A stretch of DNA of 64,000 nt, taken from positions 1-64,000 of the forward strand of contig NZ_SMLZ01000097.1 of assembly GCF_009711415.1 (NCBI RefSeq), in the 5' to 3' direction. Below the pieces are notes generated by a model. The model did no database searches, was not told the origin of the DNA, and saw nothing but the letters and a program-made list of their open reading frames with translations. Positions 15,604 through 30,197 of the stretch are shown piece by piece. Each line of letters starts with the position of its first letter. Positions within the stretch are counted from its first letter, which is position 1. The position numbers and the translations under genes are program-made. Origin of the DNA: Roseibium denhamense (GTDB lineage Bacteria; Pseudomonadota; Alphaproteobacteria; Rhizobiales; Stappiaceae).

Positions 15604-15927
15604 CTATCCTTGCGCAGGCGAGCATTCAATATCGGCAACAAAGACGCCATCGATGCCCCCCTCACACAATTGCAGGATGAACCCGCTTGCAGTCACATGA
15701 TCAGGATGCACCCCATAGGCCTCGAGCGCCTCGCGTCCGGTCGCCGTGACCAGCAAGCCGTATTGGTACTTGGACGACAGGTTCTCAAAATCACGGTTGG
15801 GTCCATGGCATACGTCGATAAGGCCGGGCACTTTCCCGACAAGACCCGATATTAGGCCCATAGCCTTGTCGAGATATGCCGGATTTACGGGATCTTTGAG
15901 AGATAACAGAACGCAATGTTGAATCAT
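15604..15927 (-). CDS. Dabb (stress-responsive alpha-beta barrel) family protein
   Basis: A small ferredoxin-like-fold protein of 107 residues, beginning MIQHCVLLSLKDPVNPAYLD, with the internal pattern VTATGREALEAYGVHPDHV typical of Dabb proteins (residues about 61-79). Members dimerise; some bind small hydrophobic or polyketide-like ligands, and most have no known reaction. Its ATG overlaps the glycerate-kinase stop (ATGA), so it is co-translated with that gene. A 60-nt gap separates it from the CofD-like gene. Confidence 0.8.
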   Translation of the reverse strand: MIQHCVLLSLKDPVNPAYLDKAMGLISGLVGKVPGLIDVCHGPNRDFENLSSKYQYGLLVTATGREALEAYGVHPDHVTASGFILQLCEGGIDGVFVADIECSPAQG

Positions 15928-17213
15928 GGGTTTGGCGCCCCAATCAGTATGGCGCGAAAATCATTGACATTGGTGAGGGTCGGACCACAGACCACCTGAT
16001 CCCCAATCGCTTCAAAGAAACCGTGCGCATTGTTGTTCTCGAGCTGTGCTTCCGCAGAAAGGCCCTCTTGCGATGCCTTTGAAAGGGTGTGCGGACCAAT
16101 AATCGCCCCGGCGACTTCCGCGGCTCCATCAACACCATCCGTGTCACATGCAATTGCGTGAATACCGGGTGCCCCATTCAAGGCAAGGGCTAACGCCAAG
16201 GCAAATTCGGCATTTGGACCGCCAACACCGTCGCCCCGCCGTGTCACCGTAAGCTCTCCGCCGGACAGCAGAACGAGTGGTTTATCATTTCCTTTGCGTT
16301 CGATCTGGCGTTGCAGCGCAAGGTCGGCCTGCCGGGCTGCGACCTCCCGGGCTTCGCCTTCCAGCGCGTCTCCGAGCAACTCCACATCGCAACCGCTCTC
16401 TTCTGCAAGACGTCTTGCAGCTTCCAGCGATTGGGAAGGCGCGGCATAGATGCGATTGGTCACCCTGGACAAACGGATGTCGCCGGGAGGAACAACACCC
16501 GTTTGGCCGCCGAGAACCTCATCGACGGATGCAGGTACCTCAATGCCCCAGGTGCTGAGTATTTCCCGGGCGTCAGCTGCGCTACTTGCATCACCGACTG
16601 TCGGCCCGGACCCGATTTCCGCAGGATTGTCACCTGGAACATCCGAAATCATCAAGGACAGCATCGATGCCGGATAGGATGCTGCTGCAAGCTGTCCGCC
16701 CTTCACCTTGCTCAGGTGTTTGCGGACGAGGTTCATCTGGCCAATCGGCGCGCCGGATGAAAGCAAAGCCTGATTGACTGCCTGTTTCTCAGAAAGGGTT
16801 ATGTGACCGGCCGGCGCCGTAAGCAAGGCAGATGCACCTCCGGAGATAAGCGCAAGAACAAAATCGTCTTCCCCGAGACCGTCCACAAGCTCGATCATCC
16901 GGCTGGTCGCTTTTAACCCTGCTTCATCCGGGACGGGATGAGCCGCCTCGACAATTTCAATCCCGGTACAAGGACGTCCGTAGCCATAACGTGTGATCAC
17001 CAGGCCTTCGCACGGCCCCCATACCGCTTCCACGGCTTCGGCCATGCGGGCCGAAGCTTTACCAGCCCCTACGACAATAACCCGTCCATCCGGTTTTTCC
17101 GGCAGGTGACGGGCCAAGCTTTGCATGGGGTCTGCAACTTCGACCGCCTTGTCAAAAAGCGCGCGCAACAATTCTTCAGAAGACAAATTGAGATCCTCAC
17201 GAAAATCCATCAT
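15924..17213 (-). CDS. Glycerate 2-kinase / MOFRL family (GckA/TtuD-like)
   Basis: 429 residues, the usual length of class II glycerate kinases, which phosphorylate D-glycerate to 2-phosphoglycerate; TtuD homologues were first named hydroxypyruvate reductase. An N-terminal DUF4147 domain carries VVGAGKASARMAEAVE (about 46-61) and LALISGGASALLTAP. The MOFRL C-terminal domain carries GGELTVTRRGDGVGGPNAEF (about 318-337) and AIACDTDGVDG. First gene of the four-gene minus-strand run. Two tandem ATGs (17213, 17210) are possible starts and both have weak Shine-Dalgarno sequences. Confidence 0.88.
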   Translation of the reverse strand: MMDFREDLNLSSEELLRALFDKAVEVADPMQSLARHLPEKPDGRVIVVGAGKASARMAEAVEAVWGPCEGLVITRYGYGRPCTGIEIVEAAHPVPDEAGLKATSRMIELVDGLGEDDFVLALISGGASALLTAPAGHITLSEKQAVNQALLSSGAPIGQMNLVRKHLSKVKGGQLAAASYPASMLSLMISDVPGDNPAEIGSGPTVGDASSAADAREILSTWGIEVPASVDEVLGGQTGVVPPGDIRLSRVTNRIYAAPSQSLEAARRLAEESGCDVELLGDALEGEAREVAARQADLALQRQIERKGNDKPLVLLSGGELTVTRRGDGVGGPNAEFALALALALNGAPGIHAIACDTDGVDGAAEVAGAIIGPHTLSKASQEGLSAEAQLENNNAHGFFEAIGDQVVCGPTLTNVNDFRAILIGAPNP

Positions 17214-17374
17214 CTTTTTGACAGGAAGTGCGCATGCCTTGGCAAGGGCTCATGACCAGAAAACAGTCGCCCCTGCACTGGCGGTCTGTGCAGGAACACG
17301 ATTTTAGTCCGATACTGATGTCGGACGCACTATTGAAGCGTAACGCAAACACCCGATCAGCATTTGAGATCAAC

Positions 17375-17761
17375 ATGACGGCTCTGGAAAAAGTATTTGA
17401 AAACGCGATCCGGAATCCGGGCGACCCAGGTCATCTAATGGTGATCAAACCGGTGAAACGGCGTGTTCGGATCTACACAGGGGACGTTTTGATTGCCGAC
17501 ACGACCGCTGCGCTTCGGGTCATGGAGATCGGCCGCTCGGTTTACGATCCCGTCATTTATGTGCCAGAGCAAGACGTCTTGGTGGCCCTGGGAAACATCG
17601 AAAAATCGACTCACTGCCCGATCAAAGGCGATGCAAGTTATGTCAGTCTCGGCACAGTGGAAATTGGCTGGACCTATAAGAACCCAATTCCAACGTCTGA
17701 GATCCTGGCCGGCCACTTGGCGTTTTGGCCTGACAAAGTCCGCCTGGTCGAAGGCGCATGA
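17375..17761 (+). CDS. DUF427 domain protein
   Basis: 128 residues from ATG at 17375. The open frame extends 49 codons upstream, but those residues run antisense to the glycerate-kinase start region and do not match the family. DUF427 is a small beta-rich fold; the markers GDVLIADTTAALRVMEIGR and THCPIKGDASY are visible. No biochemical function is established for the family. It stands alone between two minus-strand operons. Confidence 0.78.
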   Translation: MTALEKVFENAIRNPGDPGHLMVIKPVKRRVRIYTGDVLIADTTAALRVMEIGRSVYDPVIYVPEQDVLVALGNIEKSTHCPIKGDASYVSLGTVEIGWTYKNPIPTSEILAGHLAFWPDKVRLVEGA

Positions 17762-17788: not shown

Positions 17789-18079
17789 TCAATCGCTCCC
17801 ACCTTTTGATCCGCGTGCTGTGGCTGCGACAAAACCAAAGATGCGATCCAGGATTGTCAGCCCAAGGAACACTGCCAGAAGCCCGATGAAAAACCGGAAA
17901 TCGCGGAGCAATGCGCCGAACTCGTTCAAAAGTGGCCCGGCGTCTTGCCCACGCGGTATCTGGCGCACACCGATATTGGCGTAGATCCAGGTATAATAAG
18001 CGGCAGCTGTTACGGCGCCGGTCAAAACGAGAGCAATGAGGATCGTCTGCACAGGCGGACGTTTGGGATGCTGGCTCAT
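17789..18079 (-). CDS. Small two-TM membrane protein, last gene of the Rieske operon
   Basis: 96 residues, no family recognised. Hydrophobic helices lie at about 10-30 (TILIALVLTGAVTAAAYY) and 63-82 (FIGLLAVFLGLTILDRIF). A polar loop of about 30 residues between them carries LLNEFGALLRDFR. The tail is basic, so both ends are probably cytoplasmic. Its ATG overlaps the stop of the 253-residue protein (ATGA), so it is translated with it. It is probably a structural subunit of the same membrane assembly, by inference from coupling alone. Confidence 0.75.
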   Translation of the reverse strand: MSQHPKRPPVQTILIALVLTGAVTAAAYYTWIYANIGVRQIPRGQDAGPLLNEFGALLRDFRFFIGLLAVFLGLTILDRIFGFVAATARGSKGGSD

Positions 18080-18837
18080 CTCAAGACCCTCGCCGTTGAA
18101 AGGTCCGCCTTGAACACCAGAAGATCGTCCAAGCGCTCCACCTCGCCTTCAAGCTCGATGTAGAGCGCGAGCAGGTCCCTGATCTCATCGCCCAGGAGAT
18201 TGCCGTCCTTGTCCGCCATCAGGAAAAAGTTGCGGCCTTCGACCGGACCGGTGGAGACGAAGACCGGTGGGATACCTCCGGTGATGCACAAATCGGCGCA
18301 GGCCTTGTGGGCTAGCCCCTGCCCTGGCCGCATGGCACCAGCGTAACACTTGCCGTCGCAGATTTCTCCGGCCAGTTTCCAGCGCCCAAGCGGCACGGCC
18401 TCGCTTGGCGTGAAGTTGCCCACGCCATCTTCCGTTGCCTCCACGTTGCCGACCTGGATCATGGTGAGCTCACCCCGGTTGACAGGAACACCGCGCAACG
18501 TGACGGGCGTCCCGGCATTGGCTTCCGCCGGGCCAAAGGCCCCGTTTTTTCCCTGACCGGACACCATATACGTGCGCGCTGCATTCTCACCGTCGCCGGG
18601 CACCCGGAACACCGGATAGGGCCTCAGCTCCAGTAATCCGGCCTGTTCAAAGCGGTTCCCCCATTGAAACCCGCCATTGCCCGGGTCGTTCTGCGTTGAG
18701 GAAAGCGCCAGGGCGGCCAATCCCATGCCGCCTGCAAAACACAGAGAAAAAACCAGCGCGAACACGGCAAGCGGTTTTGGAACAGCGTTCAGATAGCCAA
18801 CGAAAAATGGCGCGTCCTTGGTTTGTTTCCAGCTCAT
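18076..18837 (-). CDS. Membrane-anchored protein with a CX3C...CX3C motif, unknown function
   Basis: 253 residues. One N-terminal membrane anchor at about 22-45, then a soluble domain, probably periplasmic. A striking motif lies at 160-191: cysteines at C160 and C164 (CDGKC), H177, and C180 and C184 (CADLC), followed by ITGGIPPVF. Four cysteines and a histidine in 25 residues suggest a metal or disulfide site. I cannot assign the family. Start and stop overlap both neighbours by ATGA, placing it between the ferric-reductase/Rieske gene and the 96-residue membrane protein. A role in receiving or passing electrons outside the membrane is inference. Confidence 0.75.
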   Translation of the reverse strand: MSWKQTKDAPFFVGYLNAVPKPLAVFALVFSLCFAGGMGLAALALSSTQNDPGNGGFQWGNRFEQAGLLELRPYPVFRVPGDGENAARTYMVSGQGKNGAFGPAEANAGTPVTLRGVPVNRGELTMIQVGNVEATEDGVGNFTPSEAVPLGRWKLAGEICDGKCYAGAMRPGQGLAHKACADLCITGGIPPVFVSTGPVEGRNFFLMADKDGNLLGDEIRDLLALYIELEGEVERLDDLLVFKADLSTARVLR

Positions 18838-19901
18838 GCGCCCTCTCCCAGTATGACCGGCTCAACATGCGTTCCGGGCGGCAAGGCTTTCGGATCTAGG
18901 AGCACTGTGGATCCAATTAGCTTCAGCCGGTAGGTCGAAATCTTTTCGGTAAATGGTTCCGGAGCCCGCCCGTCGGCGAGGTTGTACTGATATCCATGCC
19001 AGGGGCAGGTAATGCAGCCCCATAACACTTTTCCTTCCCCGAGCGGTCCGTTCTGGTGGGCGCAGGCATTTGTGATCGCGGACAGCTTGCCGTCATACTT
19101 GAAGATCGCAACCCGCTCTTCTTCGGCGAGCGTCACCACCTTGGCGCAATCCTCATCGATCTCGTCAACTTCTCCGGCAATCACCCAGCCCGCTTCTTGT
19201 AGCGAAGCCCTGGCGGTCGCCTCGCCGCGTTCCCGCGCTGCTTCCATCCGTCCGGTCGCAAAATGAAGACCGCAAACCAGCACAACGCTTGCCGTGACCA
19301 CACTGGTGATGATCGGATCACCTGGTCCTTGCAAAGCGCCCAACGCGACATGCAGCACAACAGCCGCATAGGCGAAATAGATCGACATATGGAGTGCTTT
19401 CCAGAGTGGGGCTCCCAGAAAACTCAGCCAGAAATCATGGCTGGTTGCGGCCAATACAAAGAGAATCAAAAGGGCGCCAATGCCAAGAGCCTCGAACGGA
19501 AAGCCGAGGATCTGGCCGTAGCTTGTATTGGAAGACAGCAGAGCAACGTATCGGTCCGTTGGCGAGAAATTGAAGTACCAACCAAGCACATAATTGGCAT
19601 GGACTGCGGCAATCCCGGCCGTCATGACCCCGAAATGCCGCCGGTTATACAATAGCGGCAGGAAACGGCGGTCGAGCCGGGCAAGTGGTCCAATACATAA
19701 TATCATTGTGAGCATCAGGAACGCGCAGCTGCCAAAGGCGCGCATCCGTAGAACCGCACCATCGATCGGCTTGGTGACATCCTCAAATCCAGGTGCGACA
19801 CGGATATAAACGTAGAGATACAGCGCGATAGCGATCAGGAGGACCGCATCATAGATGATCTTGTTCCGGTTCCAGAGCACCGGGGTGTACTGAACACTCA
19901 T
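18834..19901 (-). CDS. Ferric-reductase-like transmembrane domain fused to a Rieske [2Fe-2S] domain
   Basis: 355 residues from MSVQYTPVLW. The open frame extends another 65 codons, but GGGGAGGGG stands just before ATG 19901 and the upstream codons belong to a separate 57-residue gene. Residues 1-215 hold about six membrane helices with histidines H101, H171 and H184 placed as in haem-b-binding ferric-reductase/YedZ domains. Residues 235-345 are a Rieske ferredoxin with C280-x-H282 (NACAHQNG) and C299-x2-H302 (CPWH). This makes a predicted transmembrane electron carrier with a cytoplasmic iron-sulfur head. ATGA overlaps on both sides show strict operon coupling. YedZ/MsrQ-type quinone-linked electron transfer is the nearest known analogy. 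Confidence 0.85.
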   Translation of the reverse strand: MSVQYTPVLWNRNKIIYDAVLLIAIALYLYVYIRVAPGFEDVTKPIDGAVLRMRAFGSCAFLMLTMILCIGPLARLDRRFLPLLYNRRHFGVMTAGIAAVHANYVLGWYFNFSPTDRYVALLSSNTSYGQILGFPFEALGIGALLILFVLAATSHDFWLSFLGAPLWKALHMSIYFAYAAVVLHVALGALQGPGDPIITSVVTASVVLVCGLHFATGRMEAARERGEATARASLQEAGWVIAGEVDEIDEDCAKVVTLAEEERVAIFKYDGKLSAITNACAHQNGPLGEGKVLWGCITCPWHGYQYNLADGRAPEPFTEKISTYRLKLIGSTVLLDPKALPPGTHVEPVILGEGA

Positions 19902-20071
19902 TGGTTCCCCTCCCCGGTTGCTGTAGCCCCTGCCGGCGCCTCTATCAGGATCGCCGGCCGGTCCGCAGGTGGGGTTTGCCGTAAGGCAAGGATGGCGAAG
20001 ACCGCAAGTGGCAGCGCAATACCAAGCACGGTCCAGATCCGGGCATGGGCGGTGCGATGGGCCCGTTTCAT
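19898..20071 (-). CDS. 57-residue single-TM membrane protein
   Basis: A short gene. ATG at 20071 overlaps the stop of the 73-residue protein (ATGA) and its TGA overlaps the ATG at 19901. It encodes MKRAHRTAHARIWTVLGIAL and onward: a basic N-terminus, one hydrophobic helix at about 12-31, then a proline/alanine-rich tail. No family recognised. Unbroken overlap on both sides and a sensible membrane profile argue that it is real despite its size. It could be a small subunit of the adjacent ferric-reductase/Rieske membrane protein. Confidence 0.7.
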   Translation of the reverse strand: MKRAHRTAHARIWTVLGIALPLAVFAILALRQTPPADRPAILIEAPAGATATGEGNQ

Positions 20072-20289
20072 GGCTGACCGCCTCGCGCGCGTTCAAGGCT
20101 GATCCATCTATACAGAACCAGCGGCCAGATAAGGCAGATGCCGGGGATCAGCAACGGACGGAAAGCATATGACCCGTTTGCGGAAGGCTCGACACGGTCA
20201 ATGCCGACAACAAGGAAGGCAGCCGCAACAACGCCCCCTGCATATAGATAGTAGCGGCCCAGCTCGATCAGAAATGCTGCTGTCTCCAC
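20068..20289 (-). CDS. 73-residue two-TM membrane protein
   Basis: Two hydrophobic helices, at about 4-27 (AAFLIELGRYYLYAGGVVAA) and 44-62 (PLLIPGICLIWPLVLYRW), with a short polar link and a basic tail. Small two-helix proteins of this kind occur as accessory subunits of membrane oxidoreductases, but I do not recognise a family. It starts 10 nt after the stop of the Rieske-ThDP gene, with GGGGGAAAC before the ATG, and its stop overlaps the 57-residue gene. The operon position makes a shared complex likely. Confidence 0.72.
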   Translation of the reverse strand: METAAFLIELGRYYLYAGGVVAAAFLVVGIDRVEPSANGSYAFRPLLIPGICLIWPLVLYRWISLERARGGQP

Positions 20290-20298
20290 TGTTTCCCC

Positions 20299-22275
20299 CT
20301 AAACAAGATCCGCGTCGGTGACGATTTCCACCAAGGATGGCCCATCATGGGCGATGGCTTCGGCAATCGCAGCATGGAGCTCTGCTGCTTCCGTGACCCG
20401 GTGCCCCTGTCCGCCGCACAAACGGGCGAAGGCTGCAAAGGACGGGTTGGTGAGGTTTGTCTCCCAGACCGGCCATTCGCCTGACCGCTGTTCTTTCGAG
20501 ATCTTACCGAGTTCGGAGTTGTTGAGAAGAATGTGCGTGATGTTCATGCCGTATTTGACGGCCGTGGTGAACTCCATCGCATATTGCCCGAAACCACCGT
20601 CTCCGGAGATGGAGATCACCTTTCGGCCTTTGTACGCGTCAAAGTCTTGTGTGGCACACCAAGCGCCCAGTGCAGCCGGAAGACTGAAACCAATCGAGCC
20701 GAGATATCCGGACATTAAAATCCGCTGGCCACGTGGCTCGAAGTAGCGGCCGAAGGAATAGGTGTTGTTCCCCACATCCACCGGAATGATCGCATCTTCC
20801 GGACACAGCTCCGTCAGCGCCTTGAAGACGGCCGCGGAATGGATCCCGCTTGTCCGCTCTTCTACAAGACGCCGTTCCTTCTCATCCCGCCAGATGGCCC
20901 AGCGCTCAGCAACTTCGACTGTTTGATCGGGTGCTCCGGCAGGTTTTTGCACCTGCCCAGAAACAGCATCACAGAAGGTGCCAATCTCTCCCCAGACCGG
21001 CAGCGTGACCGGATGAAACTTGCCAAGCTGCATCCGCTCGAAGTCCACCTGGATAATCGGTTTGTAGGGTGCGATGCCTGTGTGGTTCGAAAACGACGAT
21101 CCAAGAGAGATGATCAGATCCGCTTCATTCATGAACCAGCTGGCAATGGGTGTACCAGACCGGCCAAGGACACCTGCAGACAAGGGATGGGTATCTGGAA
21201 TAAGACCCTTTCCCTTGAATGTAGTCAGCACCGGTGCATCTAACTTTTCGGCCAGCGCGATGACTTTTTCCCGGACATCCTTTGCCCCGTAGCCGAGCAC
21301 GATGGCGGGACGCTTGGCACCATTGATCAGTTGAACAGCCTCGTTCAAGTCCTCGGACGACGGCGTAACTTCAACCCGGCTCAAACGGCCTTGCGGATGT
21401 CCGGCCTCCTTTTCGCTGAGAAGCGTCTGCACATCATCTGGGAATATCAGATTGGCGACATCCCGCTCTACGAGCGCCGTCTTGAGCGCCAGAGACATGA
21501 GCTCAGCATGTTTGGAGTTGCTAAGAACCGGTTGGGAAAACCTGGACACCGATTCAAACGCCGATTTCAAATCTATGTCCTGAAACGCCCCTGGTCCAAA
21601 GACCTGCGTTTGCACCTGTCCTGTCAGGGCTAGGACTGGTGCGCGATCCACCTTGGCATCCCACAGACCAGTCAAAAGATTGGTGGCGCCTGGTCCGGCA
21701 ATGGTCAGGCACCCGGCGGGTTTGCCTGTCAATTTGCCATAGGCGGAGGCTGCAAAGGCGGCAGCGCCCTCGTGCCGGATCCCGATATAGCCAAGCTTGC
21801 CCTTGGCCACCTGACGCCGGATGGCATCGGCAAGCCCAAGGTTCGAGTGACCGACCATACCGAAGATCCGCTTCACGCCCCAATTGACCATTGTCTCGGC
21901 CATGACATCTGTCACGGTGCGCTCGTGGTCGGGCTCCGGCTCGAGCCCCACGAAGATCTCGCCTCCCTCGACCTTCAGCGGATAAACAGTCTGGCCACTG
22001 TCCTCATGCCCACCTGGCGGTTTGCCGGTCAACGGGTCAAAATCCCATCCATGCCAGGGACAGCGGATCCAGCACTTGCCATCCGCACCCTTCTCAATGG
22101 AGCCTTCACCGAGAGGCCCACGCTGGTGGGGACAATGGTTTTCCATCGCCGCCCATTGACCATCGAAGTGGGACAGGCATATGGATGTGGTGCGCGCCGT
22201 AACCGTTTTGACGCGCCCTTCCGGTAAATCATCCACATTGCCGACCTTGATCCAGTCGAAATTTTGAGCGTCCAT
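20299..22275 (-). CDS. Rieske [2Fe-2S] domain fused to a thiamine-diphosphate enzyme (POX/acetolactate-synthase type)
   Basis: 658 residues from MDAQNFDWIK, ATG at 22275 with GGGAGGA seven nt upstream. Residues 1-112 are a Rieske ferredoxin: C48-x-H50 (HCPHQRG) and C72-x2-H75 (CPWHGWDF). Residues about 118-658 are a three-domain ThDP enzyme: catalytic glutamate E169 (RHEGAAAF), a central domain with VLGYGAKDV, and the ThDP/Mg motif GDG at 558 to NN at 585-586. The core looks like pyruvate oxidase or acetolactate synthase, and the substrate cannot be read. The fused iron-sulfur domain suggests that electrons from the ThDP intermediate leave one at a time, as in an oxidase or dehydrogenase, rather than a carboligase reaction. 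I know of no characterised enzyme with this architecture. Confidence 0.88.
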   Translation of the reverse strand: MDAQNFDWIKVGNVDDLPEGRVKTVTARTTSICLSHFDGQWAAMENHCPHQRGPLGEGSIEKGADGKCWIRCPWHGWDFDPLTGKPPGGHEDSGQTVYPLKVEGGEIFVGLEPEPDHERTVTDVMAETMVNWGVKRIFGMVGHSNLGLADAIRRQVAKGKLGYIGIRHEGAAAFAASAYGKLTGKPAGCLTIAGPGATNLLTGLWDAKVDRAPVLALTGQVQTQVFGPGAFQDIDLKSAFESVSRFSQPVLSNSKHAELMSLALKTALVERDVANLIFPDDVQTLLSEKEAGHPQGRLSRVEVTPSSEDLNEAVQLINGAKRPAIVLGYGAKDVREKVIALAEKLDAPVLTTFKGKGLIPDTHPLSAGVLGRSGTPIASWFMNEADLIISLGSSFSNHTGIAPYKPIIQVDFERMQLGKFHPVTLPVWGEIGTFCDAVSGQVQKPAGAPDQTVEVAERWAIWRDEKERRLVEERTSGIHSAAVFKALTELCPEDAIIPVDVGNNTYSFGRYFEPRGQRILMSGYLGSIGFSLPAALGAWCATQDFDAYKGRKVISISGDGGFGQYAMEFTTAVKYGMNITHILLNNSELGKISKEQRSGEWPVWETNLTNPSFAAFARLCGGQGHRVTEAAELHAAIAEAIAHDGPSLVEIVTDADLV

Positions 22276-22306
22276 GAAATCCTCCCTCAAAACTGATTGG
22301 CCCGGA

Positions 22307-23917
22307 TCAGGCCACCCCACCATAGGCGACACCGGAAAGATCCGCCATTTCCCGTTTCCAGGTGGTCAGATCCTGCTGATTGAGTTGGTTTAAATGCGAA
22401 TAGCCACAGGCCCGCGCCATCACCTGCATTAGCTCCACTGATGCCTCGAAGAAATTGGCGAGCTGACGGGCGGATTTCTCGATCACAAGCCGGTTTGCCA
22501 GATGCGGTTTCTGGGTCGCGATCCCGACCGGGCAATTGTTGGTATGACAGGCGCGCATGGCGATGCAGCCGATCGCCTGCATTGCGGCATTGGAAACGGC
22601 AATCGCATCCGCGCCCAATGCCATCGCTTTCACGAAATCTGCCGGCTTACGAAGGCCTCCGGTAATCACCAGCGAAACGTCGCTTCGGCCAGACGTATCG
22701 AGATGCCGCCGGGCCCGGGCCAGCGCCGGGATTGTGGGAACGGAAATGTTGTCCCGGAAGATGATCGGAGCAGCTCCCGTTCCCCCGCCGCGGCCATCCA
22801 GAATGATGTAATCAACCCCAACCTCCAGGGCCGCATCGATGTCCTTTTCAATGTGCTGGGCAGAGAGCTTGTAGCCGATTGGAATACCGCCGGTGCGCCC
22901 GCGTACTTCATCGGCGAAGTCCCGCACTTGTTCGCAAACGGTCCAGTCGGGGAACCGCGGTGGAGAAATCGCCGACTCGCCCTCGTTCAGGCCTCGCACC
23001 TCCGCAATCTTGCCCTGCACTTTAGACCCCGGCAAATGACCGCCGGTTCCGGTCTTGGCGCCCTGGCCTCCCTTGAAGTGGAATGCCTGGACCTTGTTCA
23101 GCTTCTCCCAGTCAAACCCGAAGCGGCCGGAGGCCAGTTCATAGAAATACCGCGAACAGGCTTCCTGTTCCTCCGGCAGCATGCCGCCTTCGCCAGAGCA
23201 GATGCCGGTCCCGGCCAGCTCCGCCCCGCGGGCCAGTGCAATCTTTGCCGGTTCGGACAAGGCGCCGAAGCTCATGTCAGAGACAAATAGTGGTATCTTC
23301 AGGTGAAGCGGCTTTTGCGCATTCGGCCCGATCACCACATCGGTCCCAACCGGATCATCATCAAGCAGCGGAAAGCGCTGCAGCTGGGCAGTCAAGATCT
23401 GGATATCGTCCCAATCCGGTAATTCCACACGCGGAACACCCATGGCATCGACTACGCCATGATGGCCGGTCTTGGACAAGCCGTCCTTGGCGTAGGACTG
23501 GATCAGCTTGGTGTAAGGCTCTTCCGTTGTACCGTGGCTGGGGTCAGCATAAAGACCGAGATAGTCATCGCGCTGGAACGGCTGCGGGTTGCCTTTGGCC
23601 CAGGCCGCGATCTCCTCCGCATCCACCAGCACTTCGTCGTCTTCGATCCAGCTGGTGAACTTTTTCAAGACTTCCGAGTTGTTATATTCAGAAACACCCG
23701 TATCAATGCGGTAGTCCCAGTAATGAACGCCGCAGATCAGATTGTCTCCGTCCACATAACCGTCGGACATCAGCGCCCCGCGGTGCAGGCACCGGCCGTA
23801 AAGCACCGACACTTTCTCATCAAAACGGACAATCACCAGATCGACATTTTCGACCAGTGCATATTGCGGTTCCCGGTCCGGCAACTCACCCCACTTGGCG
23901 ACGGTGTGTGCTTTCAT
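22307..23917 (-). CDS. Rieske [2Fe-2S] domain fused to glutamate-synthase FMN/[3Fe-4S] core
   Basis: 536 residues. N-terminal Rieske domain at about 1-105: C43-x-H45 (GRCLHRGAL) and C62-x2-H65 (CGVHYWDY). From about 140 onward it is the FMN-binding barrel of glutamate synthase with SFGALSEPAKIALARGA, GGQGAKTGTGGHLPG and DGRGGGTGAAP. The [3Fe-4S] motif C451-x5-C457-x4-C462 (CHTNNCPVG) is intact. The class II glutaminase domain and the GXGXG beta-helix of full GltB are absent, so ammonia from glutamine is not expected. GltB2-like stand-alone cores are known, but a Rieske fusion is unusual. A GGGGAAT Shine-Dalgarno precedes ATG 23917. It is followed after 31 nt by the Rieske-ThDP gene. Confidence 0.88.
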   Translation of the reverse strand: MKAHTVAKWGELPDREPQYALVENVDLVIVRFDEKVSVLYGRCLHRGALMSDGYVDGDNLICGVHYWDYRIDTGVSEYNNSEVLKKFTSWIEDDEVLVDAEEIAAWAKGNPQPFQRDDYLGLYADPSHGTTEEPYTKLIQSYAKDGLSKTGHHGVVDAMGVPRVELPDWDDIQILTAQLQRFPLLDDDPVGTDVVIGPNAQKPLHLKIPLFVSDMSFGALSEPAKIALARGAELAGTGICSGEGGMLPEEQEACSRYFYELASGRFGFDWEKLNKVQAFHFKGGQGAKTGTGGHLPGSKVQGKIAEVRGLNEGESAISPPRFPDWTVCEQVRDFADEVRGRTGGIPIGYKLSAQHIEKDIDAALEVGVDYIILDGRGGGTGAAPIIFRDNISVPTIPALARARRHLDTSGRSDVSLVITGGLRKPADFVKAMALGADAIAVSNAAMQAIGCIAMRACHTNNCPVGIATQKPHLANRLVIEKSARQLANFFEASVELMQVMARACGYSHLNQLNQQDLTTWKREMADLSGVAYGGVA

Positions 23918-23977: not shown

Positions 23978-25234
23978 TCAGGTCAAAACTTCCTTAGAAA
24001 CGTCTGGCCGCATGGGCGGCACCTCTTCCATCTCCGCCATCTTTTCTTTGGATTCCACGTGTGCGGCATACCACTTGGCAAAAGGTACGGCAGTCACTCC
24101 ATGCAGAACAGCGCTGATCCAAACTGCGTTGACGGCGAGATTTAGGAGTTGCTCGCCGATCTCATGGTCGATTTCCTCGACGATCAACAATGCGAACAGG
24201 GCTGTCGCAAGGCCACGTGGACCGAACCAGCCAAAGAAAACACGCGTGACAGGTCCCGCGTCCGTTCCCATCAGGGAAATCCAGATAGCCAAGGGGCGAA
24301 CGATAAAAAGGCTGATCAGGATGATGGCAAGCGTTTCAAACGACAAATGAGCAATCGCATTCGGCAACAAGGCCAGCCCAATCAGGAAGAATGCGCCCCA
24401 GGTCAGCATCTGGCCTTCGCCCTCGGTGAATTCGTAGATGAACCCGCAGTGGCCCTTAATGACGTTACCGAATAGGAGACCGGCCACAAAAGCGGAAATG
24501 AAGCCGTTGCCGTCAATCATGCCGGCCGCCAGATAGGCGCTGCCAGCCATTGCGAGCGCCCCAATGCCCTCGATCTGGACGGTCGTCATCCGATGTTTTT
24601 TGGCCAGGAGAAAGATCTTGCCACCGATCACACCAATCACGGCGCCCACCAAAGGCCCAAAGACAAGTTGTTTGGCTCCGAACAGGATCCAGTTGGTCGT
24701 ATCAGCGTGCATCATTTGGGCGGTCAGGCTGGCAAATAGCAGGACGACAGGCAGGGCCATGCCATCGTTGAGACCACTCTCAACAGTCAGGGCGCTTCGA
24801 ACCCGTTCAGGAACCTTCTTGTTGGTGACGACTGCCTGACCAAGGGCCGCGTCAGTCGGTGCCAGCAAGGCCGCGACAAGTGCCGCCACAACGACAGGAT
24901 AGGCGGATGTAAAGGGAAGTGCGGCAAGGGTTCCAATGCCCACGGACAAGGGCAAGCCGATGATAAGCATCCGGAACGGCCATTCATGATTTTGCCTGAG
25001 ACTGCGAAGATTGATCTGCGCAGCGTCGAGGAAAAGGAGCACGACCAGCGCGAACTCGGCCACAATGTGGAGCAATGCCTCGGCATCGTCCAAGGGCATA
25101 AAGCCGGTTTGCGCCATCAACAGTCCAAAGCCCAGAAAAAGCATCGGGGCGGTCAACATGCTGTCGGACAGTTTCTTCGCGAGCAGCGTATAGCCGACCG
25201 TGAACATGCCCAACATCAATAATCCTTGTGTCAC
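23978..25234 (-). CDS. Cation/proton antiporter (CPA1, NhaP-like)
   Basis: 418 residues, about 12 membrane helices, without the long cytoplasmic tail of eukaryotic NHEs. It carries the CPA1 transport core: AALLAPTDAALGQAVV (about 139-154, the TDP-type helix break) and LTVESGLNDGMALP (about 169-182, the ND pair that binds the ion). Na+ or K+ in exchange for H+ is the expected activity. It is the first gene of the minus-strand run and lies 60 nt before the Rieske-glutamate-synthase gene, so it may belong to the same transcript. The GTG at 25234 is a tentative start and an ATG at 25216 is an alternative. Confidence 0.85.
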   Translation of the reverse strand: MTQGLLMLGMFTVGYTLLAKKLSDSMLTAPMLFLGFGLLMAQTGFMPLDDAEALLHIVAEFALVVLLFLDAAQINLRSLRQNHEWPFRMLIIGLPLSVGIGTLAALPFTSAYPVVVAALVAALLAPTDAALGQAVVTNKKVPERVRSALTVESGLNDGMALPVVLLFASLTAQMMHADTTNWILFGAKQLVFGPLVGAVIGVIGGKIFLLAKKHRMTTVQIEGIGALAMAGSAYLAAGMIDGNGFISAFVAGLLFGNVIKGHCGFIYEFTEGEGQMLTWGAFFLIGLALLPNAIAHLSFETLAIILISLFIVRPLAIWISLMGTDAGPVTRVFFGWFGPRGLATALFALLIVEEIDHEIGEQLLNLAVNAVWISAVLHGVTAVPFAKWYAAHVESKEKMAEMEEVPPMRPDVSKEVLT

Positions 25235-25535: not shown

Positions 25536-25553
25536 TGTCAATTTTAGTTGACA
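25536..25553. promoter_or_regulatory. PpsR/CrtJ-type operator before bchE
   Basis: TGTCA-N8-TGACA, a perfect form of the TGT-N12-ACA motif bound by PpsR/CrtJ, the aerobic and light repressor of photosynthesis genes. Arms extend to 9 bp each (ATGTGTCAA/TTGACACAT, 25533-25556) around a 6-nt centre. It ends 18 bp before the bchE ATG, inside the promoter or 5' leader, as expected for repression. Confidence 0.7.
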
Positions 25554-25571
25554 CATATAAGAGGTGATCCC

Positions 25572-27215
25572 ATGCGCATCCTGTTTGTTCATCCAAACTA
25601 CCACTCTGGTGGCGCGGAAATCGCCGGGAGCTGGCCACCAGCCTGGGTCGCCTATCTCTCTGGAAGTCTAAAGAAGGCTGGCTTTGACGATATCCACTTC
25701 GTCGATGCGATGACAAACGATCTGACTGACGAACAGATCGCTGCTGAAATCCGGCGCATTTCTCCAGATGTTGTCGGGGTCACCGCTATCACGCCGTCAA
25801 TTTATGCCGCTGAACGTATCCTTGAAATTGCCCGGGACGAACATCCGCATGCCGTTCGTGTCCTCGGTGGTGTCCATGCCACCTTCATGTACAAGCAGGT
25901 GCTGAGCGAAGCGCCTTGGGTGGATGTAATTGTCCGCGGCGAAGGCGAAGAGATCGTCATTGATCTCATGCGCACCATTGACGAGGAGCGCTGGCCGGAA
26001 GACCGCAGAAAAATCAAAGGGATTGCTTTCAGGGAAGACGACCAGATCGTTGCAACCCATGCAGCAGCGACAGTGAAAGATCTTGACGCGATCGAGCCGG
26101 ACTGGGACATCCTGGAATGGAACAAATACACTTATGTTCCCCTCGGCACGCGCGTTGCCATACCTAATTTTGCCCGGGGCTGCCCCTTTACTTGTTCTTT
26201 TTGTTCACAGTGGAAATTCTGGCGCGATTACCGAGTGCGTGATCCCAAGAAAGTCGTCGATGAAATCGAAAAACTGGTCACCGACCACAATGTCGGTTTC
26301 TTCATCCTTGCCGACGAAGAACCGACCATCAACCGAAAGAAGTTCGTTGAATTCTGCAACGAGCTGATAGCGCGCGGGCTGCCGGATAAAATCAAATGGG
26401 GCATCAACACCCGTGTGACCGATATCATGCGCGACAAGGAACTCCTGCCGCTCTACCGCAAGGCAGGCCTGGTGCATGTGAGCCTTGGAACGGAAGCGGC
26501 CGCACAGCTCAAACTCGACCAGTTCAACAAGGAGACCAAGGTCAACGATAACAAGGAAGCCATCCGGCTCCTGCGTGAGGCCGACATCTTTGTTGAAGCT
26601 CAGTTCATCGTTGGCCTCGACAACGAGACCGAAGAAACGCTCGAAGAAACTTACCGGATGGCCTGGGACTGGCAGCCCGACCTTGCAAACTGGGCCATGT
26701 ACACACCGTGGCCGTTCTCACCGCTCTTCCAGGACATCCGGGATCAGGTCGAAGTCTTCGACTTTTCGAAATACAACTTCGTCACACCGATCATGAAGCC
26801 ATCCGCCATGACACGCGGTGAATTGCTGAACGGCGTCATGAAGAATTACCGGCGCTTCTACATGCAAAAAGCGTTGTTCCATTACCCATGGCGCGGTACC
26901 GGCTTCCGGCGGCGCTATCTCCTGGGATGTTTGAAAGCGTTCTTGAAGGCGGGCTTTGCACGCACCTTCTATGACCTTGGCAAGGCCGGCTACTGGGGTC
27001 CGCAGTCCAAGGACAAGGTTCATTTCGATTTCGACGAGACACGCACCCTTGCAGAGGCGCAAGTTGCTGATTGGGAATCAGCAGCAGATCGTGCAAGCAG
27101 GGCGGCAGAACGCAGAGCTGCCATCCGGGCACAAGGCAAGGAACGCGCGGCTGAGCGTGCAGCGGCGGCGAAGGTATGCGGGGGTGGAACGCAACAACTT
27201 CCCGAAAATGCTTAA
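25572..27215 (+). CDS. bchE: Mg-protoporphyrin IX monomethyl ester anaerobic oxidative cyclase
   Basis: Oxygen-independent cyclase that forms the fifth (isocyclic) ring of bacteriochlorophyll, using radical SAM chemistry and cobalamin. 547 residues from [20 protein letters not shown]. An N-terminal B12-binding domain covers about 1-150. The radical SAM cluster motif is C204-x3-C208-x2-C211 (GCPFTCSFC). A C-terminal extension ends in an Ala/Arg/Glu-rich helix. ATG 25572 follows AGAGGTG; the eight upstream in-frame codons lie inside the operator. It is followed by bchJ with an 8-nt overlap. The upstream FnrL-like and PpsR-type sites predict expression when oxygen is low. It marks the organism as a bacteriochlorophyll producer. 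Confidence 0.95.
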
Positions 27216-27813
27216 AATGCTCAGTGCACCAAACACACCGGCTGGGGTGATTGGTCCAAACGCCCTGACCCAGTTTTTGGACCCGATTGACCGTCAATGC
27301 GGACCAGACGTCCGCAAGACCCTGTTGAAGACAGCCAGCATCGCAGCCTTGCCGGATATGAGTGGGCTCATTCCGGAAGGCCCCGTTGCCCGGTTTCATC
27401 AAGCTGTCCGTCGCACACTGCCGCACTTTGCCGAACAGCTCTGCCGACAGGCAGGCACCGGCACGGCTGACTATGTGCTTCAACACCGGATCCCCAAGCC
27501 CGCACAGTTTGTGCTGAGACACTTGCCGCCGCCCGTATCCGCCAAGCTGCTCGCCAAAGCCATTGCCCGCAACGCATGGACCTTCTCCGGATCCGGCCAA
27601 TTTCAGATTTCATCCAAGGACCCGCTGGTCTTGAAGTTGTTCGACAATCCCCTGATTGCCGGAGAGGTTTCGCAAGCTCCCATCTGCTTCTGGAACACGG
27701 CCGTCTTCGAACGGCTGTATCAGGTACTTGTAAACCCGGCGGCCCGGGTCAAAGAGACCAGCTGCATGGCTTGCGGCGATCCAAGCTGCGACTTTGAAGT
27801 AACTTTCCGCTGA
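27208..27813 (+). CDS. bchJ: Bacteriochlorophyll 4-vinyl reductase family protein (V4R domain)
   Basis: 201 residues from ATG 27208, which overlaps the end of bchE by 8 nt. ATG 27217 and GTG 27184 are alternatives. The C-terminal V4R domain ends in the cysteine pattern C-x2-C-x4-C ([11 protein letters not shown]), thought to bind zinc. BchJ was linked to divinyl-chlorophyllide handling in Rhodobacter, though the main divinyl reductase is now known to be another enzyme; BchJ is often regarded as a substrate chaperone. The bchE-bchJ order matches photosynthesis gene clusters of other alphaproteobacteria, where bchG usually follows. Here the next gene is unrelated and on the other strand. Confidence 0.88.
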
Positions 27814-27835
27814 GAAGCAATGATCTGGGAGACCT

Positions 27836-28576
27836 TTACTTTACCCGGACACTGTCAAGCGCAGCGATATCGCGTGCCGGCGGAAATGCCTCAGAGGCGA
27901 TTTCCAGTATCAGCTTCTTCCGGACAGCGGATGCAAATGTCTCGGCGTTATCGGCTGTGACAACAAAGGCGCCGGGACCACCTATGATTTCCGAAAAGAA
28001 GCGGTCTTCGAGGTTGTAGGACACCGGGCGGCCGGAACAATGTCGGCACAAAACCGCCAGGCCATTAATGACAATTCCGGAATTGACGACCGTATCCCGC
28101 GCTTCAGTGATGCTGGGACCGTTCCAGTTGTTGGCGCTGTCTGCCGACAGATCAATGACCCTGCGCAGCCCTGTGTATTCGTTCGTGTCGATCAGCTCTT
28201 TGCCCTTCAACAGCGCCGCTCCGATGGCATTGCGGCCAAAGGCCTGGCGCGGCGGTGCCATCAAGCGTTCGGCAAAAAGCTCGGCTGATTGCGGACCATC
28301 GATGACCATCCAGTCCACGACCACATCCTGGGAAAACATGTCGGCCCACTCGACGTAGGTAATCGCAATCTTTCCGTAAATGTTGCTGGTGATCGCATTC
28401 AGGACGCGCGGATCGGTGATAGCGTCCGCATATCCCTGCCGCTGAAACCTGATTTCCGCATCATCGATCGAACCTGTCGCATCGGCCAAGAGGACAAGCT
28501 CAAGATCAAGCTCCTCAGCCCGAAGCGGGGTCAGGGCAACACAACACCACAACAAAATTGACATCAGACACCGCAT
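27836..28576 (-). CDS. DUF1194 family secreted protein (vWA-like)
   Basis: 246 residues from MRCLMSILLWCCVALTPLRA, a signal peptide with likely cleavage near residue 20. A von Willebrand A-like fold is suggested by VLLADATGSIDDAEI (about 28-42, a DxTxS metal-site variant), FGRNAIGAALLKG and RRVIDLSADSANNW. The DUF1194 family is common in alphaproteobacteria, with no known role. I use ATG 28576 because GGAGGG lies just upstream; the longer frame adds 16 codons before the signal peptide. It sits alone between bchJ (convergent) and hemA (same strand, but separated by a terminator). Confidence 0.82.
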   Translation of the reverse strand: MRCLMSILLWCCVALTPLRAEELDLELVLLADATGSIDDAEIRFQRQGYADAITDPRVLNAITSNIYGKIAITYVEWADMFSQDVVVDWMVIDGPQSAELFAERLMAPPRQAFGRNAIGAALLKGKELIDTNEYTGLRRVIDLSADSANNWNGPSITEARDTVVNSGIVINGLAVLCRHCSGRPVSYNLEDRFFSEIIGGPGAFVVTADNAETFASAVRKKLILEIASEAFPPARDIAALDSVRVK

Positions 28577-28757
28577 GAATTCCCTCCGGCTGAGAGCATC
28601 GGGCGTTTCGTTCGAAACGCCCAAATTAGCTCGATCAGTCCATATTCGATCAGCTTTTGGCGGGAAATCTGGGCCGGCTCACCGCCTGCTGATCCAAGTC
28701 AGGACCATACGGGTAGCTAGGGCGGTATCAATTCAAAGAAACAAAACACGCTCAAAA

Positions 28758-28790
28758 CAAAAGTCCCGGCGCAATGCACCGGGCCTTGTT
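28758..28790 (-). terminator. Rho-independent terminator of hemA
   Basis: In the minus-strand transcript AAGgCCCGG - tgcattgcg - CCGGGaCTT (28761-28787) is followed by UUGUUUU. The stem is 5 GC pairs plus an outer AAG/CTT clamp with a mismatch between. It lies 29 nt past the hemA stop. Confidence 0.65.
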
Positions 28791-28815
28791 GCAAGTTCAG
28801 AGCGTCGGGCAAGTC

Positions 28816-30033
28816 TTACGCGACAGCCCGGGCTAGCGCACATTGTGACCAAAGGTCATTGATCGCATTTGCGAGATGCTCAATATCGGCAGCCGTATGA
28901 AGCGGTGTCGGCGTGAAACGCAGGCGTTCGGTTCCGACCGGTACTGTCGGATAGTTGATCGGCTGAACGTAAATGCCGTAGGTCTCCAATAGAATGTCCG
29001 AGATCCATTTGCATTTCTTCGCGTCGCCAACCATGACCGGCACGATGTGGCTCGGGTTTTCCATATGCGGAATGCCGCGCTTGTCGAGCGCAGCGCGCAC
29101 CTGAGCGACCCGGTCCTGATGCGCCTTCCGCTCGAAGGGGCTGTCTTTCAGGTGACGGATGGACGTTGCCGCGCCAGCTGCGAGCGCAGGCGGCAGTGCT
29201 GTCGTAAATATAAAGCCGGAGGCGAAGGACCGGATGAAATCGACCACTGTCTTAGAGCCGGCAATGTATCCGCCCATAACCCCAAAGGCCTTGCCAAGAG
29301 TGCCTTCGATGATGGTGAGACGGTCCATCAAGCCTTCGCGCTCTGCGACACCACCACCCCGGGGACCGTACATTCCAACCGCATGGACCTCATCGAGATA
29401 CGTCATTGCGCCAAACTTGTCGGCGGCATCGCAGATCTCCTTGATGGGCGCGATGTCACCATCCATGGAGTAAACACTCTCAAACGCGACAAGCTTTGGT
29501 GCATCCGGATCATCAGCCGCCATCAGGCGCTCCAGATCCGCAACGTCGTTGTGCTTGAAGATCCGCTTTTCGCAGCGCGCGTGACGGATGCCTTCGATCA
29601 TCGACGCATGGTTCAGTGCATCGGAATAAACAATCATGCCCGGAATTTGCGACGCGAGTGTTCCGAGCGCTGCCCAGTTGGACACATATCCCGATGTGAA
29701 AATCAGCGCGGCTTCCTTGGCATGCAGATCGGCCAGCTCGCGCTCGAGAATAACGTGATAGTGGTTGGTACCGGAGATGTTGCGTGTTCCGCCAGCACCG
29801 GCACCACACTTACCGAGGACATCCTGCATGGAATCGACGACTTTCGGGTGCTGGCCCATGCCAAGGTAATCGTTGGAGCACCAGACGGTAACGTCTTGAA
29901 CAGTTCCATCCTCGCGATACCGTTTCGCGCGGGGAAAATCGCCTGACATGCGTTCGAGATCTGCAAAGACGCGATAGTTGCCGTTGTCATGCAGTTTGTT
30001 CAGGCGCTCTTCAAGATACGCATTCACGTCCAT
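28816..30033 (-). CDS. hemA: 5-aminolevulinate synthase
   Basis: PLP enzyme joining glycine and succinyl-CoA to 5-aminolevulinate, the entry step to haem, bacteriochlorophyll and B12 (C4 or Shemin pathway). 405 residues. PLP lysine K248 in the TLGKAFG segment, D214 in LDEVHAVG, and the early [10 protein letters not shown] motif (54-63). ATG 30033 follows AGGGGA; 26 upstream in-frame codons are not family-like. The gene sits 3 kb from bchEJ. An FNR-like site is about 165 bp upstream of the start. Confidence 0.95.
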
Positions 30034-30197
30034 ACTCGGGTGTCCCCTCAATCCGCCAGACCGATGCCTAGCCGGTCTCACTTTAACTTTGCCCGCGCCG
30101 CGTCCTAACAAGCACCAGGCAGATCGGCAGGTCCGGACGTCTGCCGCTACTACCGAACCTTATAGTCATTCAAAACTGGATTACCACCCTGTACGCC

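Follow-up and report, generated by a model that had tools for sequence, protein, structure and literature searches.

In the 64,000-nucleotide (nt) window of contig NZ_SMLZ01000097.1 of Roseibium denhamense (the window being the whole stretch of DNA that was analysed), an operon on the minus strand at positions 17789-23917 encodes three different proteins that each bear a fused Rieske [2Fe-2S] domain. GltR joins it to a glutamate-synthase-like core of the flavin mononucleotide (FMN)/[3Fe-4S] type, ThDPR to a thiamine diphosphate (ThDP) enzyme and FRR to a ferric-reductase-type membrane protein. The genes are associated across genomes above chance, and relatives of both soluble enzymes carry other iron-sulfur domains in place of, or in front of, the Rieske domain. 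The set is taken as two modules: A, with a cation/proton antiporter, GltR and ThDPR, and B, with FRR, the 253-amino-acid (aa) protein p253 and small membrane proteins. The reading preferred here, with a probability of about one half, is a modular redox system in which each enzyme would have its own [2Fe-2S] carrier, ThDPR and GltR would exchange single electrons and FRR, where present, would be the outlet.

Organization of the Operon

Seven genes are packed into the operon (Table 1), with intergenic distances of 31, 9, -4, -4, -4 and -4 nt when ATG starts are used for ThDPR and FRR. The original prediction, made from the DNA letters alone, described seven genes with gaps of at most 31 nt and mostly 4-nt overlaps, and the coordinates bear it out. 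Its three Rieske fusions in one likely transcription unit are confirmed by the Pfam matches, which are Rieske with Glu_synthase, Rieske with TPP_enzyme N, M and C, and Ferric_reduct with Rieske. All of its genes are present; it overlooked the antiporter gene just upstream. A scan for promoters and terminators gave no more sites than in shuffled sequences. For ThDPR the ATG at 22275 (658 aa) is a likelier start than the GTG at 22332 (677 aa), because a Shine-Dalgarno-like sequence precedes the ATG and the frames of its relatives have a median length of 660 aa; residue numbers of ThDPR given below are counted from the GTG, in the 677-aa frame. The start of FRR is the ATG at 19901, which gives 355 aa, instead of the TTG that opens a 420-aa frame.

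The source genome is a draft of 116 contigs (100% complete), and 3 of its 6 Rieske matches above the Pfam cut-off fall inside the operon. The Rieske domains of ThDPR and FRR are 35% identical, and that of GltR is 21-23% identical to the other two. Since their mutual identity is only 21-35%, the three domains, to judge from their sequences, are not recent copies of one another. At E ≤ 0.1, neither Pfam nor NCBIfam has a family that matches s73, s57, p253 or s96. A single protein of ~125 aa takes the place of s73 and s57 in many relatives, and two such fused relatives gave no match above the cut-off. An apparently analogous gene of ~94 aa stands after p253, in the place of s96, in 12 loci besides the window.

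Table 1. The operon and the adjoining antiporter gene, in order of transcription; positions are those of the window.
Gene	Product	Length (aa)	Position	Strand	Basis or remark
NhaP	Cation/proton antiporter	418	23978..25234	-	PF00999; 60 nt upstream of GltR
GltR	Rieske [2Fe-2S] + FMN/[3Fe-4S] glutamate-synthase-like barrel	536	22307..23917	-	Pfam
ThDPR	Rieske + ThDP enzyme N/M/C	658 (from ATG)	20299..22275	-	Pfam
s73	Small protein, 2 predicted membrane helices	73	20068..20289	-	
s57	Small protein, 1 predicted membrane helix	57	19898..20071	-	
FRR	Six-helix ferric-reductase/YedZ-type protein + C-terminal Rieske	355	18834..19901	-	PF01794, PF00355
p253	1 membrane helix, then 2 predicted beta domains	253	18076..18837	-	AlphaFold model, alignments
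s96	Small protein, 2 predicted membrane helices	96	17789..18079	-	

Distribution and Gene Order

The association was assessed in a single sample of 289 genomes from the same class as the window, the Alphaproteobacteria. The threshold for ThDPR and GltR was E ≤ 1e-120, a Rieske-GltR being a match from residue 5 or earlier, and at most 4 (ThDPR) or 5 (GltR) candidates were scored per genome. ThDPR occurs in 13 genomes, Rieske-GltR in 8 and the GltR core only in 4 more. p253 is clearly present in 14 (E ≤ 1.1e-28), in every one of which FRR adjoins it, and 8 more give weak p253 matches (E 1e-5 to 8e-4), 7 of them in frames of 138-164 aa. All three fusions are found together in 7 genomes from five families (G000, G009, G096, G123, G143, G227 and G252). 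With kinship ignored, the hypergeometric P is 1.7e-7 for FRR and ThDPR, 8.7e-10 for FRR and GltR and 4.3e-10 for ThDPR and GltR; when the window's own genome is left out, the values become 1.9e-6, 1.6e-8 and 8.4e-9, respectively. In G123 the three fusions sit on three contigs, so the association there is not mere proximity, and in G009 they are spread across ~65 kb. The only Rieske-GltR genome outside the three-fusion set, G074, is 67% complete. The earlier claim that the grouping is more than chance is therefore sustained both by these P values (2e-7 to 4e-10) and by the share of the genomic Rieske domains found in the operon.

Gene order was compared in the best 80 of 464 relatives from a collection scan with ThDPR, a set that leans to near relatives and in which many flanks are cut by contig ends. 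Within the flanks of these 80 loci, 63 hold GltR, whole or in part, 39 the antiporter (by phmmer), 37 FRR and 36 p253. The most frequent orders are antiporter-GltR-ThDPR (15 loci), GltR-ThDPR (14), antiporter-GltR-ThDPR-FRR-p253 (13), ThDPR alone (10) and antiporter-GltR-FRR-p253-ThDPR (7), while eleven others make up 21 loci. ThDPR comes directly after GltR in 48 of the 63 loci with GltR and after GltR-FRR-p253 in 12 of them. Of the 56 loci that extend far enough to hold the antiporter ahead of GltR, 36 have it immediately upstream. In a small sample of 21 genomes the antiporter was matched in 4 at E ≤ 1e-60, one being the centre genome itself. Module A recurs in marine alphaproteobacteria. 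The original prediction had looked to conserved synteny outside the clade as a sign of one system, and conserved gene order was indeed found there, in several versions. One relative, 75% identical to ThDPR, lies on a 5.3-kb contig of a metagenome-assembled genome (MAG) labelled Nitrosomonas sp. (L098), perhaps a binning error.

In a sample of the whole phylum, which scored at most two candidates per genome and may have missed some, ThDPR was found in 5 of 398 genomes, namely the window's own, one of its order and three of its class. A plasmid collection gave five records of ThDPR at E ≤ 1e-100, from Halorubrum, Halorarius, Salinirubellus, Haloferax and Mycobacteroides. The four haloarchaeal ThDPR proteins are 56-60% identical to the window's, Rieske part included, and that of Mycobacteroides is 53% identical. 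GltR was found in seven plasmid records. Rieske-GltR, at 62-64% identity, is on three of the four haloarchaeal plasmids that carry ThDPR, and the core alone (from residue 130 or 152 onwards) is on four other plasmids, two from Vibrio and one each from Photobacterium and Pseudoalteromonas. The gene after ThDPR in Halorarius encodes a sodium:proton antiporter of weak similarity to that of the window (E about 1e-8), and GltR and a potassium channel gene are also within 5 kb; in Halorubrum, ~17 kb separates ThDPR from GltR. The Mycobacteroides plasmid encodes a cation:proton antiporter of no detectable similarity to the window's and a flavodoxin-family protein; over 200 aa the latter shares 44% identity with a protein encoded beside ThDPR in G184. 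FRR and p253 were matched in this collection on Rhizobium plasmids only (5 records each). The plasmid records name ThDPR 'thiamine pyrophosphate-binding protein' and GltR 'glutamate synthase-related protein', and nothing more. Annotations around the haloarchaeal genes (L159-L162) include mercury(II) reductase, peroxiredoxin, DsrE and dihydrolipoyl dehydrogenase, a redox-stress-like setting.

The Thiamine Diphosphate Enzyme

The closest solved structure to ThDPR is E. coli PoxB (3eya, E 1.8e-66), and the central domain PF00205 is present. Conservation was examined in 97 sequences (95 of them distinct), made up of 100 collected frames minus 9 that were fragments or distant paralogues, the window's protein and the five plasmid sequences. 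The Rieske ligands C67, H69, C91 and H94 are invariant in all 97, as are E188, F250, K610, E614 and Q615. E188 corresponds to PoxB E50, the ThDP glutamate, and F250 to PoxB F112. K610 stands at the position of PoxB F465, which is assumed to be an active-site residue near the substrate. Because this lysine replaces F465 in 97 of 97 sequences, the substrate of ThDPR is probably not pyruvate and probably carries a negative charge. The earlier suggestion of a 2-oxo acid remains an inference, with pyruvate itself made less likely.

ThDPR differs from PoxB not only in this replacement and in its N-terminal Rieske domain but also at its end. The match stops at PoxB residue 527 of 572, 5 residues before the end of ThDPR, which therefore lacks the C-terminal part of PoxB, presumably a membrane-binding extension. 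Its best NCBIfam model, PRK08611, gives 394.4 of the 742 bits of the cut-off, and ThDPR also stays under the thresholds of the other NCBIfam families listed. In 2-oxoacid:ferredoxin oxidoreductases, ThDP chemistry is coupled to iron-sulfur clusters. The comparison is one of working principle; ThDPR has the pyruvate-oxidase/acetolactate-synthase fold and a Rieske cluster.

The Glutamate-Synthase-Like Protein

GltR shares with the large subunit of glutamate synthase the FMN/[3Fe-4S] Glu_synthase domain (PF01645, E 5.3e-91) and the [3Fe-4S] cysteine triad (C451, C457 and C462, invariant in 20 of 20 aligned sequences). In contrast to that subunit, no Pfam glutaminase domain was found in its 536 residues, and a Rieske domain, or in relatives a CDGSH carrier, takes the N-terminal place. 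The Rieske ligand motifs of the window's protein are C43xH45 and CGVH, and the pattern fits 64 of 70 GltR-type frames, 6 of 76 having been left out as short. Five of the six frames off the pattern have CDGSH motifs, and the sixth (L107) has its first part in another frame. The glutamate synthase model PRK11750 scores GltR at 139 bits, below its cut-off of 1047. A 1585-aa frame elsewhere in the genome matches Glu_synthase more strongly than GltR does, and a 558-aa frame and two weak matches come in addition. The housekeeping glutamate synthase is therefore probably a protein other than GltR, and that candidate role is weakened. GltR, ThDPR and FRR all differ from Rieske oxygenases, as no C-terminal mononuclear-iron catalytic domain was found in them by Pfam.

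The retained FMN/[3Fe-4S] core could also mean that electrons flow into GltR, with ThDPR driving a glutaminase-free, ammonia- or amine-dependent synthase of glutamate or N-alkylglutamate and the membrane unit serving as overflow. The other Glu_synthase frames, which leave GltR free of a housekeeping task, suit this idea. However, no operon gene resembles an ammonia or amine source by Pfam, 6 of the 13 ThDPR genomes lack Rieske-GltR, and the direction of electron flow cannot be read from a sequence, so that a synthase appears unlikely.

Exchange of the Iron-Sulfur Carrier

In some relatives another carrier replaces the Rieske domain of GltR. The GltR cores of L152-L155 and of two Vibrio plasmids have two CDGSH motifs in its position, and the CDGSH domains of the L154 protein are confirmed by Pfam. 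In L105 (215-1744), a MAG labelled Planktomarina, a CDGSH-GltR gene lies directly before a Rieske-ThDPR gene, at the site where Rieske-GltR would otherwise stand. ThDPR relatives show additions of the same kind. In L143 and L144, Pfam finds two CDGSH, a Fer4_19, a Rieske and the ThDP domains in the order CDGSH-Fer4_19-CDGSH-Rieske-ThDP; L145 and L146 resemble these by sequence, and L142 has CDGSH motifs before its Rieske domain. As one core bears different iron-sulfur carriers, the pattern argues that the selected trait is the carrier function rather than the Rieske fold, and the GltR and ThDPR cores seem to need such a carrier. The electron-carrier logic of the original prediction gains support from these swaps and from the intact Rieske ligands. 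The joining of a Glu_synthase core to CDGSH domains has been noted earlier, and the available part of that paper gives neither a function nor a link to ThDPR or FRR (PMC5859297).

Rieske and CDGSH clusters have histidine ligands and pH-dependent potentials. Instead of carrying electrons, these domains may sense redox state or pH and so control the enzymes and, less directly, the antiporter. Such a role would fit the recurrence of ion-transport genes among the neighbours and of a sigma-factor gene near 11 of the 80 loci, beside ThDPR in L143. On the other hand, chains such as CDGSH-Fer4_19-CDGSH-Rieske before a redox-capable core look like wires, and FRR is, to judge from its sequence, a member of a family of proteins that conduct electrons through membranes. 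A sensor function is accordingly judged quite improbable.

The Membrane Module

The FRR model (pLDDT 79.5) has six long helices and a Rieske domain, the ligand pattern of which fits 53 of 53 FRR frames. R87, H101, H171 and H184 are invariant in 34 of 34 aligned sequences. The YedZ/STEAP branch of the ferric reductase domain (FRD) proteins has, in the available part of a 2013 survey, a signature of an arginine at the first haem histidine, a histidine 14 residues on and a histidine pair 13 apart, and the four FRR residues agree with it by spacing alone (PMC3591440). FRR thus resembles this branch in its PF01794 match, six helices and arginine-histidine spacing, and differs in its C-terminal Rieske domain. 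The same survey lists Rieske among the domains joined to FRD proteins, with no function given in the part available (PMC3591440). R88, H89 and H155 are invariant too, and a second haem is possible. From the charge distribution, both ends of FRR should face the cytosol. Unlike MsrQ, FRR has p253 and small proteins as neighbours instead of MsrP; no molybdopterin protein of the MsrP type was found by Pfam among the operon products, and the MsrQ NCBIfam model gives FRR 31.8 bits against a cut-off of 130.

p253 is modelled (AlphaFold, pLDDT 88.3) as one helix followed by two beta domains. D161, C164, M169, H177, C180 and C184 are invariant in the alignments, and the cysteine, methionine and histidine residues are a possible metal or thiol site. 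Foldseek gave 351 matches, none at E ≤ 0.001, and the best (0.0097) is a single-stranded-DNA-binding protein; the modelled beta domains bear a weak resemblance to the OB-fold. A sequence search of the PDB returned 7 matches (E 0.49 to 4.5), all of them designed or coiled-coil chains. Short, probably secreted proteins weakly like the C-terminal part of p253 (C...HxxCxxxC) are encoded in L017 (1393-1866) and L020 (1288-1713). They lie near genes that resemble SCO1 by reading, possibly a copper link.

Several other genes occur near module B. In L021 (1-3564) and L023 (3232-6140), genes for a ThDP enzyme that lacks a Rieske domain and for a CoA transferase (from the annotation in L021 and by reading in L023) are no more than a few kb away from it, perhaps as a partner of the oxalyl- or hydroxyacyl-CoA type. 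A malic-enzyme-like gene, by reading, follows p253 in L023. Radical-SAM-like genes, also by reading, directly precede module B in L031 (6475-7569) and L033 (5445-6524), from two genomes of one family with ThDPR and GltR on other contigs.

Proposed Mechanism and Its Alternatives

In the modular redox system favoured here, ThDPR would carry out the oxidative decarboxylation of a 2-oxo acid, probably not pyruvate but one whose side chain bears a negative charge, and the electrons would leave one at a time through its Rieske cluster. The FMN, [3Fe-4S] and Rieske centres of GltR, if all are occupied, would link two-electron chemistry at a glutamate/2-oxoglutarate-like site to the same one-electron pool, to which GltR may either supply electrons or from which it may consume them. 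The co-encoded antiporter would balance protons or cations. Where module B is present, the cytosolic Rieske domain of FRR would draw electrons from the pool, presumably through contact with the other Rieske domains, and FRR would move them across the membrane over haem b, with either quinone or the Cys/Met/His site of p253 in the periplasm as the acceptor.

Several results weigh against this proposal. The low identity of the three Rieske domains gives no sequence support to a shared docking surface. The 50 Foldseek matches listed for FRR cover the Rieske part only and give no structural support for the membrane part, so the assignment of its membrane core rests on PF01794. Seven of the 14 FRR genomes have neither ThDPR nor GltR at E ≤ 1e-120, and 6 of the 13 ThDPR genomes are without Rieske-GltR. 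Among 41 searched genomes without FRR near ThDPR (from 43 such loci, of which 42 were entered; completeness not stated, and many of them MAGs), 21 show no FRR match and the other 20 carry FRR elsewhere. None of the three queries is matched in the three sampled genomes of the window's order, nor is ThDPR in one genome of the window's own family from the phylum sample, so carriage is patchy. The 21 of 41 ThDPR genomes without FRR and the 7 of 14 FRR genomes without both enzymes indicate that the membrane path is optional. The seven genes hence do not form one obligate system, contrary to the first reading. The original prediction took fusions occurring mostly apart as grounds for its rejection; all three do meet in 7 of 289 genomes, above chance, and FRR goes without the pair in half of its genomes.

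The same distributions could reflect two independent systems that share an operon in some lineages, namely a cytosolic pair with its antiporter and a membrane unit served by other donors. Where module B occurs without the pair its neighbours differ and no recurrent partner was seen, and in two Rhizobium plasmids it follows a short-chain dehydrogenase/reductase (SDR) gene; the absence of FRR from 21 of the 41 genomes points the same way. The neighbours of module B in L023, L031 and L033 were not counted here, as those genomes carry the pair elsewhere. Yet module B is found in 14 of 289 genomes overall as against 7 of 13 with ThDPR and 7 of 8 with Rieske-GltR, and the joining of the modules in several gene orders suggests repeated association. 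Two separate systems are therefore a serious alternative, but a doubtful one.

Neighbouring Genes

Just upstream of the antiporter, at 25548-30111, lie BchE-like, BchJ/V4R-like and 5-aminolevulinate-synthase-like genes, identified by reading and not by family search. The BchE-like gene, starting at 25548, adjoins the operon in the window, L067 and L069, which might make the operon part of bacteriochlorophyll synthesis. Its distribution speaks against this, as it was matched in 2 of the 80 loci, 13 further Roseibium-type loci keep the gene order without it, and no BchE-like match was found in the Rhizobium or haloarchaeal stretches. Such a link is hardly credible. The region downstream (15924-17761) holds a plus-strand DUF427 gene and a minus-strand gene of the glycerate-2-kinase type (PF13660/PF05161). 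Among the 80 named loci the 429-aa glycerate-kinase-type downstream gene has a match in one, L071, so it was not counted as a member. A role in anti-phage defence was also considered and set aside, as PADLOC matched 0 of 10 proteins at E ≤ 0.001.

Recurrent neighbours in the 80 loci are a DUF5996-like protein (15 loci; the one member tested, at E 2.9e-5, is just under the Pfam cut-off), the sigma factor mentioned above (one member tested), a small membrane protein (10) and a zf-HC2-type protein (8; tested on the L143 relative). In L143 (7505-13244) a sigma factor, a zf-HC2 protein, the CDGSH-Fer4_19-CDGSH-Rieske-ThDP protein, an FMN_red protein and an antiporter are encoded on one strand, and the first two are a possible regulator for the core. 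In L082 (1963-5288) the gene of a Rieske-free ThDP enzyme is followed by a malic enzyme gene, near an antiporter-GltR-ThDPR cluster.

Implications

Each part of the operon varies a known kind, and no described counterpart of the whole was found in the open literature. A search of the open-licence PMC literature, subscription papers being outside its scope, found no description of the gene set or of a Rieske-ThDP fusion, in agreement with the original statement that no characterised system has this composition. In a wider and more tentative proposal, which we regard as possible rather than probable, Pseudomonadota, Actinomycetota and haloarchaea would have in common an undescribed redox pathway. 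A ThDP dehydrogenase of a new class and a glutaminase-free glutamate-synthase-like enzyme, both with an inbuilt Rieske or CDGSH wire, would oxidise one metabolite after another (from glutamate through 2-oxoglutarate to succinate, for instance). Single electrons would pass, in some lineages by way of a YedZ-type protein with a Rieske tail, to a new metal or thiol site in the periplasm, and the whole would be coupled to cation/proton exchange.

In two domains of life, enzymes with pyruvate-oxidase and glutamate-synthase cores appear to have been reconnected to a circuit of iron-sulfur clusters. The alternation of Rieske and CDGSH domains on a single core is a natural experiment on the role of fused clusters. 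If the favoured reading is right, the system would represent a new way in which the metabolism of 2-oxo acids and amino acids is connected to a pool of single electrons and, in some bacteria, to the periplasm.

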